Shown here one piece after another: positions 1-26,451 of a stretch of DNA of 43,271 bases. The stretch's first letter is position 1. Every line of letters starts with the position of its first letter. The notes below the pieces were generated by a model. That model was given only the letters and a program-made list of their open reading frames with translations, ran no database searches and was not told the DNA's origin. Made by a program: the position numbers and the translations under genes. The DNA lies in the NCBI GenBank assembly GCA_947259075.1, contig CAMYKQ010000056.1, forward strand, positions 1 through 43,271, read 5' to 3'. Source of the stretch: an uncultured Gammaproteobacteria bacterium. Lineage in GTDB: Bacteria > Pseudomonadota > Gammaproteobacteria > DRLM01.

Positions 1-150
1 CAAGGCGGGAGGGCGAGGCCAGTTTTTCGATCGTTCGAGGGAAGAGCGAAGCGAAGGGTGGAGCCGTCGCTATTTGACGAGAAGGATCGGAAAAATGGAC
101 CGCTCTCCCACCGGCGCAGTAGATCAGACCCAAGTCCGACAAGCTCCTAG
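1..150 (+). repeat. Truncated copy of a palindromic MITE-like repeat
   Basis: This stretch matches the reverse complement of 12350-12535 over almost its whole length, with scattered substitutions. The window edge cuts off roughly the first 36 bases of the element. The right end at 136-150 reads CCGACAAGCTCCTAG, one base different from the 15-base inverted repeat of the full copy. The interior carries the same imperfect palindrome. No protein-coding potential is evident. It lies upstream of parE, and the 94 bases between it and the parE start hold only a parE ribosome site (GAAGGA). Confidence 0.85.
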
Positions 151-11744: not shown

Positions 11745-11774
11745 TTGACCGCGCTGCTATCCTTTGCTTGTATA
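11745..11774 (+). promoter_or_regulatory. Possible sigma-70 promoter of the acetyltransferase gene
   Basis: TTGACC at 11745-11750 is five of six for the -35 box. A 17- or 18-base spacer leads to TTGTAT or TGTATA, a poor -10 box. The site lies about 35 bases before the acetyltransferase start, in the short divergent gap. The -10 mismatch keeps confidence low. Confidence 0.3.
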
Positions 11775-11807
11775 GGAGGGCACGTTGAGTGCGTCTGGAG
11801 GCCGATC

Positions 11808-12344
11808 ATGCAAGAAGTAAGGGTGCGACAAGAAAAACAAGGTGATGCGGATGCGATCACCGTAGTGAACCGCAGTGCCTTCGGCGGGGATGACGAGGCC
11901 CAATTGGTACTGGCCTTGCGCGGTTCGAAGAATTTTATCCCCGAGCTGTCCTTGGTCGCCGAGGTGGGCGGGCGTATTGCCGGGCATATTTTATTGTTCC
12001 GCGCCCAATTAGAGCGGTCGCCGGGCCCCACCATGGATGTTTTGGCCTTGGCGCCCATGGCCGTGGTGCCGTCCCAGTCGCACCGGGGTATCGGGTCTAC
12101 TTTGATACAAGAGGCCGCCGCCGCGGCCGGCCGTTTGGGGTATCAGGCCATCGTGGTGATTGGGCACCCGGATTATTACGGACGGTTTGATTTCCTGCCT
12201 GCCGCGCGCTGGGGTATTCAATGCCTGTTGCCGGTACCGGTGGAATCCATCACCGCCCGCGAGCTGGTGCCCGGCGTTTTAGCGGCGGGGGGGCGCTTGC
12301 GTTACCCGGCCGAGTTCGCGCGCTTATTTCAGGCGAATGGCTAA
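11808..12344 (+). CDS. GNAT-family N-acetyltransferase (YhbS-like)
   Basis: This 178-residue protein has the GNAT fold. Motif A is VVPSQSHRGIGSTLIQEA, with the RxxGIG acetyl-CoA pyrophosphate loop, followed by IVVIGHPDYYGRFDF, typical of the YhbS branch. The substrate cannot be read from the sequence. I chose the ATG at 11808 because CTGGAGG at 11795-11801 lies six bases upstream; a longer frame from 11745 would start inside the likely promoter. The stop codon is only five bases from the left end of the palindromic repeat. Confidence 0.85.
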   Translation: MQEVRVRQEKQGDADAITVVNRSAFGGDDEAQLVLALRGSKNFIPELSLVAEVGGRIAGHILLFRAQLERSPGPTMDVLALAPMAVVPSQSHRGIGSTLIQEAAAAAGRLGYQAIVVIGHPDYYGRFDFLPAARWGIQCLLPVPVESITARELVPGVLAAGGRLRYPAEFARLFQANG

Positions 12345-12349
12345 GGCGG

Positions 12350-12535
12350 CTAGGAGCCTGTCGGCTTTGGGACTGAGCTACCGCGCCGGTAGGAGAGCGG
12401 TCCATTTTTCCGATCCTTCTCGTCAAATAGCGACGGCTCCACCCTTCGCTTCGCTCTTCCCTCGAACGATCGAAAAAACTGACCCCGCTCTCCCACCTTG
12501 CTCGCCACGATCGCCCAAGTCCGACAGGCTCCTAG
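12350..12535. repeat. Complete palindromic MITE-like repeat with 15-bp inverted ends
   Basis: The element is 186 bp. Its ends are perfect 15-base inverted repeats, CTAGGAGCCTGTCGG at 12350-12364 and its complement at 12521-12535. The inner flanks are also complementary: the segments around 12388-12418 and 12470-12498 pair imperfectly, so the whole unit can form a long hairpin. A second, truncated copy in the opposite orientation lies at 1-150. It has no transposase. It fills the entire gap between two convergent genes and its right end contains the stop codon of the gene at 12532-14151. Confidence 0.88.
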
Positions 12536-14151
12536 AGACCGGACCATACAGAGTCGAATTCTTTTTTGCGTATACGCGCAACGTCGTCCTCCGTTTCCTC
12601 CAGGGCTTCCGCGAGGGTGGTGAACTCGAAACGGGTATAAGCCTGTGTCCCTTCGACGGCCCGTCCGAGGCGGAGGCGGCGTTCGGTTTCTCCAGTTTTG
12701 ACCGAGATGATGTCGCCGGGGTGGTAGAGGAAGGCCGGCGTCATTAAGGTTTCCACGCTGTCTTGGGGTGGCACGATGGGCATGAGAAAGGCTTTTAAAT
12801 AATCACGCTCGGTCTCGCCGCTGTCGGCGAGGCGCACCTTGATCGGCGTGGCTGAGGGCACCAGCATTTGCATGCCGAAATCCACGCTGCGCCCGGCCTG
12901 GGATTTGAGCCAGCGGATCACGCCGATGCCCAAATTTTCGGAGCCGCCGTCATCGCCGTGCCGCACGGCGATCAATTCACCCACGCGCACCCGCGCCGCT
13001 TCGCCCCCTTCCCAGCGTAAACGCGCGCCGGTGGCGCTTTCGTTAATGATGCGGCAGGTCGCGCCGCTCATTGCGTATGGCGCGCCCGCGCGGTGTTCGT
13101 TCACCGCTTGGTGGCTGGCGCTGAGGCCGAAGATGACCACGACGCTGTCCGTTTGACCCGCACGGGAGAAGACGCGTTTGGAGCTGTGGCCCCAGGAGAG
13201 CAATAAGCGCCGCAACAAGTCGCGCGAATAGGTTTCTTTTTGCGTGTTGGCGCGGGCGGGCGCCAGCATGTGATCTTGGCCGGCTTGCGTCAGCAAACCG
13301 CGCAAGCTGTGGCTGAGCGCGGTGGTGTCCAGCATGCGGGTGGTGGACTGTTGCCGTACGGTGTTGTAGATCAAATAGGCGGGCGGCGCATCGCCGTCGA
13401 GGTCCATGACGAAGACGCCGGGCGGTTCGTTGAAATCAGTGAGGGTGTAGAGCTGGCATTGGCCGGCCCAGCTTTCCAGCAAGGTATACGTCGTGTTCAT
13501 CTCGTGTTGCGTGAGATGGTGGGGGTCCGCCAGCGCCAGCAGCAAAATCTGTTTGAAGACATCACTGACCGAGGTGTTCCCGTCGCCCTGTTTCAGGGGA
13601 TCTTTCACCACGCCGAGGTGCATCGCCTTGCGCTCGGCCTCGAGATAGAGAGTGTATATCGTCCGCCAGCGCGCGCCGTCCACCTCTTCATAGAGTTCAT
13701 AAGAGGTGAGCAGGCTTTGGCCGTGGTAATAGAGGGCGCGATGGAGGGCGGTAACCAGGCCGTCCACGTCCTGTCGCAGCCCGTTTTGTCCCAGGAGGGT
13801 GGAGACGGCTTGGTGATAAGCCCCGGCCATTTCCAACTGGATTTCTCGTAGCAGCTGGGCGATCTTGCGGTTCTTTTCCGGCAGCGGGAAGGCGGTGCCG
13901 GTGTAACGCCGCCGCAGGGCGTCGCGCAGATAACGTACCGGCGAGCGCAAGGATTCCAGGGCTTTAATGCGTTGCGTGGCGGGCACGTCGACGCCGCGCA
14001 TTTGTGTCAGCGAGCTAAAAATCAGGCGGCAGGTTTCACCTAAATTGGCGAGTGGCAGTCCCGCCGCCCATTCGTCGGGGTCGTCGCGGCGGATGTCCAG
14101 TAGGTGCTGGATACCGGATTGAGAGACTGTGTTATTGGCGCTTGTTTGCAT
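12532..14151 (-). CDS. Large PilZ-like domain protein, function unknown
   Basis: The protein has 539 residues. About the first 330 are helical and unrecognised. Near 371-376 lies NESATG, which fits the (D/N)xSxxG motif of PilZ domains, but I see no RxxxR arginine motif before it, so cyclic-di-GMP binding is uncertain. The tail is acidic then basic (EALEETEDDVARIRKKEFD). I chose the ATG at 14151, preceded by GAGGTATGG, over the adjacent GTG. Its TAG stop codon (12532-12534) lies inside the terminal repeat of the palindromic element, so the C-terminus may have been changed by the insertion. It neighbours a FimX-like gene, which supports a role in cyclic-di-GMP signalling. Confidence 0.7.
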   Translation of the reverse strand: MQTSANNTVSQSGIQHLLDIRRDDPDEWAAGLPLANLGETCRLIFSSLTQMRGVDVPATQRIKALESLRSPVRYLRDALRRRYTGTAFPLPEKNRKIAQLLREIQLEMAGAYHQAVSTLLGQNGLRQDVDGLVTALHRALYYHGQSLLTSYELYEEVDGARWRTIYTLYLEAERKAMHLGVVKDPLKQGDGNTSVSDVFKQILLLALADPHHLTQHEMNTTYTLLESWAGQCQLYTLTDFNEPPGVFVMDLDGDAPPAYLIYNTVRQQSTTRMLDTTALSHSLRGLLTQAGQDHMLAPARANTQKETYSRDLLRRLLLSWGHSSKRVFSRAGQTDSVVVIFGLSASHQAVNEHRAGAPYAMSGATCRIINESATGARLRWEGGEAARVRVGELIAVRHGDDGGSENLGIGVIRWLKSQAGRSVDFGMQMLVPSATPIKVRLADSGETERDYLKAFLMPIVPPQDSVETLMTPAFLYHPGDIISVKTGETERRLRLGRAVEGTQAYTRFEFTTLAEALEETEDDVARIRKKEFDSVWSGL

Positions 14152-14267
14152 CACCCATACCTCGAATTCGTGGTCCGCCTTGTTGATTATTGGTTTTGGC
14201 GAGGTGGTCCGGTACCGCGATTAGCGCGATTACGCGCATCAATAGCCTAGTCCGAAGAGCGGCCATT

Positions 14268-26217: not shown

Positions 26218-26310
26218 GGAGAGATGGCCGAGTGGTCGAAGGCGCTCCCCTGCTAAGGGAGTATGGGGTTTAAAGCCCCATCGAGGGTTCGAATCCCTCT
26301 CTCTCCGCCA
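26218..26310 (+). tRNA. tRNA-Ser (anticodon GCU)
   Basis: The 93-nt gene folds as a class II tRNA. The acceptor stem is GGAGAGA with TCTCTCC, discriminator G and encoded CCA. The anticodon loop CCTGCTAAG carries GCT, reading AGC/AGU serine codons. The long variable arm is TATGGGGTTTAAAGCCCCAT, and GGTTCGAATC is the T-loop. The csrA then tRNA-Ser(GCU) then tRNA-Arg(ACG) order is that of E. coli serV-argV. Confidence 0.97.
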
Positions 26311-26374: not shown

Positions 26375-26451
26375 GCGCCCGTAGCTCAGTTGGATAGAGT
26401 ACCAGGCTACGAACTTGGTGGTCGGGAGTTCGAATCTCTCCGGGCGCGCCA
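26375..26451 (+). tRNA. tRNA-Arg (anticodon ACG)
   Basis: The 77-nt gene has acceptor stem GCGCCCG paired with CGGGCGC, discriminator G and encoded CCA. The D-arm is GCTCAGTTGGATAGAGT. The anticodon ACG lies in GGCTACGAACTT; A34 would be edited to inosine to read CGU, CGC and CGA. The T-arm GGGAGTTCGAATCTCTC has one G-T pair. Confidence 0.97.

Follow-up and report, generated by a model that had tools for sequence, protein, structure and literature searches.

The window, a 43,271-nucleotide stretch from an uncultured Gammaproteobacteria bacterium, corresponds to contig C56 of a draft assembly of 65 contigs (3.10 Mb, 99.9% complete). A GNAT-family acetyltransferase gene (11745..12344, plus strand) and a convergent 540-aa open reading frame (12532..14154, minus strand), which is conserved in two congeners and has no Pfam match, flank a 186-bp unit at positions 12350-12535 that begins with CTAGGAGCCTGTCGG and finishes with its complement. 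The acetyltransferase stop codon lies 5 bp before this unit, and the open reading frame ends in its right CTAG. The first-pass annotation ascribed to the unit 15-base inverted ends and imperfectly palindromic arms, and both features are confirmed: the 15 bases comprise a palindromic 4-bp CTAG and an inverted repeat that is perfect over 11 bp and extends with mismatches to 18 bp, and 12350-12535, taken as a single strand, adopts one long hairpin with imperfect pairing (-87.8 kcal/mol; z = -5.1 relative to shuffles). Elsewhere in the window, Rfam identifies two tRNA genes (26218-26307 and 26375-26448).

Taking CTAG as the target-site duplication, as demonstrated for the parent insertion sequence (IS) below, the element proper therefore spans 12354..12531 (178 bp). 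It is assigned to the minus strand, which gives both the best folding and the best score with our family model R1 (126.7 bits, versus 71.2 bits on the plus strand). The unstranded duplications occupy 12350..12353 on the left and 12532..12535 on the right, where the minus-strand TAG is the stop codon of the 540-aa frame. Terminal inverted repeats (TIRs) are found at 12354..12371 (GAGCCTGTCGGCTTTGGG, plus strand) and 12514..12531 (GAGCCTGTCGGACTTGGG, minus strand). A second copy at 1..150 (plus strand), with its right CTAG at 147-150, lies in the opposite orientation as originally described, the inverted-repeat arms 23-151 and 12349-12477 being 95% identical; its 5′ part is absent because the contig starts inside it, which is not a biological truncation. 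With fewer than 500 bp, no coding capacity, TIRs, and no transposase inside, the element upholds the earlier reading of a miniature inverted-repeat transposable element (MITE).

The suspected multi-copy family is evident throughout the genome. We detected 25 places matching over at least 127 bp and three short remnants, which resolve into about 18 full-length copies, 7 copies interrupted by a contig end, and 3 fragments; one remnant (C17:48981-49060) is a copy deleted internally that keeps both ends. The TIR pattern matches 46 times, compared to zero matches with a reversed control pattern, and all copy ends read CTAG-GAGCCTGTCGGACTTGGG or nearly so. Beyond this genome, a pattern scan of a collection of species genomes with the 22-base end returned at least 103 stretches. 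The flanks carry no other duplication, leaving CTAG as the sole candidate target duplication. Own-genome contigs also end within copies, so these repeats break draft assemblies.

Copies in this genome vary in size around a 169-bp core. Those of 184-187 bp carry an inserted 20-mer module, GGAAGAGCGAAGCGAAGGGT, located at 12441..12460 (minus strand) in the window element and at 40-59 (plus strand) in the second copy, while further 184- and 200-bp copies have a different apical hairpin, CCCCCTTTTTATATACAAGGGG. The same 20-mer occurs in the relatives G001, G002, G026, and G027 (loci L218-L222 and L243-L254) embedded in two further families of palindromic repeats whose ends differ (AAGAACCTGTTCATGATCTC... 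and AAGGAACCTCTGATTTATTCAGAG...). Exchange between MITEs is the one explanation we can offer for its presence in unrelated repeats. We also observed a second MITE-like family of about 190 bp with ends TTAGAACCTGTTCA(T/C)GATCTCG at L219, L220, L221, and L254 (G002) and at L248-L252 (G026); in G026, the 20-mer module occurs in at least 20 places.

The ends of the element point to its mobilizing partner. At locus L075, one of the stretches returned by the pattern scan, TIRs 1.57 kb apart enclose an IS1182 transposase (362.7 bits to the NF033551 equivalog, cut-off 270) whose plasmid relatives include that of ISAzo2. ISAzo2-like ISs with both ends intact, from plasmids and genomes alike, measure 1553-1611 bp and carry CTAG[GC]AG[CT]CTGTCGG[AG]CT on both sides. 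The MITE and these IS1182 ends have CTAG-[G/C]AG[C/T]CTGTCGGACTT in common; 18-19 of the terminal MITE bases equal the IS1182 TIR, with no similarity internally. The search for a transposase with matching ends, proposed at the outset, thus leads to the ISAzo2-like branch of the IS1182 family. In the terminology of a review (PMC10969869), the element is very probably a type II MITE of this subgroup, having TIR and CTAG in common with the IS and nothing internal. In G081 (Nitrospinaceae; L186:1364 and 2022), an IS1182 transposase fragment bears a MITE-like end inside and its left end is MITE-like with a longer CTAGGAGTCTGTCGGACTTGGGG; here a MITE may have inserted into the element that mobilizes it.

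Plasmids resolve, for the parent IS, whether CTAG belongs to the element or to the target, which had been left open. Queries that fused the flanks of the ISs in pPAG5 and pBJ86 across one CTAG matched 103 and 114 plasmid records, respectively, over at least 80% of their length, and the ten matches listed for each search were all full length at 100% identity. Since plasmids with an empty site carry CTAG once, this IS uses CTAG as its target and leaves a copy of it on either side. Every complete MITE copy likewise has CTAG or a close variant at its borders, so that CTAG is the probable duplication of the MITE as well; the exact duplication is read from the two IS insertions.

Relatives furnish the element-free sites that the mobility hypothesis called for, with the element missing at all three orthologous sites tested. 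The window site is syntenic in two congeners, G001 and G002, where the flanking genes align on both sides with a spacing of 47 and 106 bases in place of 218 and 278 query bases, respectively. The C15 copy is likewise missing at the orthologous site in G001 and G002, and the C38 copy (86239) in G001, G003, and G004. These relatives are 67-90% identical over the matched stretches, at which divergence the exact pre-insertion CTAG is unreadable; an exact empty site with an intact single CTAG was found at none of the three.

About 30% of insertions fall at a CTAG that includes an amber stop codon, and the interrupted gene still terminates there. In this genome, CTAG coincides with a neighbor's stop at 6 of 34 element ends, compared to 1 of 36 CTAG sites elsewhere, and at 25 of 167 ends versus 15 of 291 other sites in other genomes, counts that are approximate because genes were called with a simple codon model. 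The preference would follow from two properties of CTAG, which includes the amber codon TAG and is scarce within these genomes: the window holds 22 sites, compared to 152 expected from base composition and 30 from a Markov estimate. At L139, one of two convergent genes stops in the left CTAG and its partner in the right, as expected if both formerly shared one CTAG. A similar candidate, L084, was discarded, as its right neighbor is another element end.

A resident source of transposase is scarce. The draft assembly contains no ISAzo2-like transposase; two IS1182-like proteins considered as partners, C53 (382 aa) and C27 (329 aa), do not reach the cut-off of the family model, and the flanks of the former have no matching TIRs. 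Among 33 other MITE-bearing genomes, three encode an ISAzo2-like transposase. Across 369 sampled genomes of the class, the MITE is present in 88 (58 families), the IS in 8, and both in 3, with no significant co-occurrence (3/88 versus 5/281). An autonomous partner is thus absent from the draft assembly here and accompanies the MITE in 3/33 and 3/88 genomes elsewhere.

The MITE itself extends far beyond this host. Its 168-169-bp core, altered by base changes that compensate each other, is found again in beta- and gammaproteobacteria, Nitrospirota, and Desulfuromonadales. Of the 82 elements detected outside the host genome, 55 measure 168 or 169 bp, and after dereplication the copies from Thioalkalivibrio, Rhodanobacteraceae, Burkholderiales, Saccharospirillum, Nitrospirales, and Desulfuromonadales can be aligned over their full length. 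A phylum-level survey recovered the family in 52 of 398 genomes, with most matches in f207, a family of another class of the phylum. MITE copy numbers are lower bounds because at most seven candidates were scored per genome. Elements group by host into host-specific subfamilies, which suggests old residence followed by local amplification. The family is not a local burst, being structurally conserved across several phyla, several of whose assignments rest on metagenome-assembled genomes (MAGs) in which misbinned contigs are possible; the Nitrospirales case comprises two MAGs with their own consistent subfamily. One element, in an Ideonella MAG (L100:1542-1799), has its left half partly duplicated in tandem.

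Carriage by phages or plasmids was rejected: IMG/VR contains no exact TIR match, and blastn returned no match for two MITE copies against a plasmid collection or for one against a phage collection; all these collections are biased, and such searches would miss divergent copies. The element matches no curated Rfam family, and no prior description was found by text searches, in Rfam, or in the review PMC10969869; a 21-mer match in an mBio paper proved to be an unrelated Geobacter primer.

What has been preserved over this range is a fold. The consensus contains 57 pairs, 31 of which have changed on both sides with pairing kept, and the covariation score of 0.384 exceeds that of shuffled alignments (0.141) and of alignments with partners slid (at most 0.105); these counts treat related sequences as separate, and the alignment represents approximately 13 effective lineages. 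The fold is also strand specific. Read as GCGAGG-CAGTTTTT...AAAAATGGACCGC, the family has an RNA consensus energy of -62.7, against -11.9 for the opposite strand, and the better strand of the consensus also folds better in 63 of 67 individual elements with RNA energies and in 66 of 67 with DNA energies. With sequences clustered at 85%, this strand has 34 G-T pairs against 15 A-C pairs (p = 0.009, rising to 0.08 at 80% and 90%), or 20 against 4 when counted by columns (p = 0.0015; p = 0.04 at 80% and 90%), a tally made on a structure chosen blind to strand and of modest significance after clustering (p 0.0015-0.08). As modeled, the asymmetry fits a constraint on one folded strand, RNA or single-stranded DNA alike, and descent from an asymmetric ancestor contributes to it.

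These patterns would be expected of a functional structured RNA or folded single-stranded DNA that travels between transposon ends and whose fold is kept for a benefit to host or element; two-sided changes, a better-folding strand, and the G-T excess all favor this explanation, which we nonetheless regard as rather improbable. Copies show no orientation preference relative to transcription of co-directional neighbors (21 sense, 21 antisense), and no consistent replication-strand bias is apparent (12:8 for the host's own copies, 16:19 for 35 further copies). In G393:C1, all seven scored copies occupy the G-poor strand of the replichore, an observation that other genomes did not reproduce and that is probably due to chance. 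In addition to the absence from Rfam, unpaired positions are on average no more conserved than inner helices (0.66-0.74 versus 0.70). Pairing might instead be maintained passively, if template switching during replication corrected one arm of the quasi-palindrome against the other and so generated covariation without selection. Template switching is established to act on long inverted repeats, and the element is one throughout. We consider this reading less likely than not; such correction should erase mismatched internal bubbles and strand asymmetry, yet both are retained across lineages.

Two further alternatives concern the identity of the element. In being small, palindromic, chromosomal, and numerous, in having no transposase next to them, and in forming host-specific subfamilies, the copies recall REP/REPIN or ERIC sequences, which could be moved by an agent other than IS1182 such as a Y1 RAYT. 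The 18-19 terminal bases and the CTAG that flanks MITE and IS alike are of IS1182 type rather than those of a RAYT-mobilized repeat, rendering this origin most improbable. A bidirectional terminator or 3′-end element kept near gene ends is also very unlikely. Many copies do start a few bases from a stop codon, and convergent sites outnumber divergent ones by 14 to 7, but this excess falls short of significance, the genes on either side of most copies are co-directional, and placement at stop codons follows from the CTAG target. We return to the type II MITE of the IS1182 family, which we rank as new, unusually widespread, and structurally conserved.

Known systems resemble this MITE in part. 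ISAzo2 (IS1182 family, Aromatoleum aromaticum plasmid 2, NC_006824.1) has the terminal repeat CTAG-CAGCCTGTCGG-CTT and CTAG on both sides but is 1.55-1.6 kb long, contains a transposase gene, and bears no similarity to the MITE core. MITEPsy1 of Pseudomonas syringae, whose mobilization has been observed experimentally, is likewise small and non-coding with 18-nt TIRs and a 4-nt CTAG (or YTAA) duplication (PMC3189936). Unlike the present element, it is 100 nt long, has the TIR GGAAGGTCTGAAAAAGCC, and is attributed to ISPsy2 (listed as IS5?); its distribution was termed somewhat restricted (PMC3189936). Correia elements, ERIC, and QMITE are also short, folded, multi-copy bacterial repeats with TIRs, but they have narrower host ranges (PMC10969869), other ends, and no link to IS1182. 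A MITE of Polaromonas sp. JS666 (Mattes et al. 2008, as cited in PMC10969869) may be the same as the present family, which is frequent in the genus Polaromonas.

The shared ends and flanking CTAG suggest how such an element could move. An IS1182 element, either resident or in transit, would provide an ISAzo2-like DDE transposase in trans; this enzyme would bind the TIRs, excise the MITE, and join it to the 4-bp palindrome CTAG, and gap repair would then duplicate CTAG. Where CTAG holds a stop codon, the duplication would restore it, so that the copy would be harmless and persist. The 168-169-bp fold, long kept through compensating changes, was, we infer, most likely retained because the hairpin of one strand, as single-stranded DNA or transcript, matters for the element's mobility or for its tolerance by the host.

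The usual picture of MITEs is one of brief bursts, confined to a single genome and derived from a local IS. The present family instead carries the same architecture, with its covarying helices and its fold on one strand, through 58 families of one class and into at least two other phyla, and a transposase matching its ends is ten times less common than the MITE. We tentatively propose, as an idea more likely wrong than right, that this trans-phylum miniature family with one 168-169-bp, one-strand fold outspreads its presumed IS1182 partner and that the folded strand serves mobility or persistence. The choice of a CTAG target whose duplication restores a stop codon provides a simple reason why insertion can be harmless. 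Because the architecture is so widespread and the matching transposase so rare, the notion of a non-autonomous element that outlives and outspreads its helper becomes testable.
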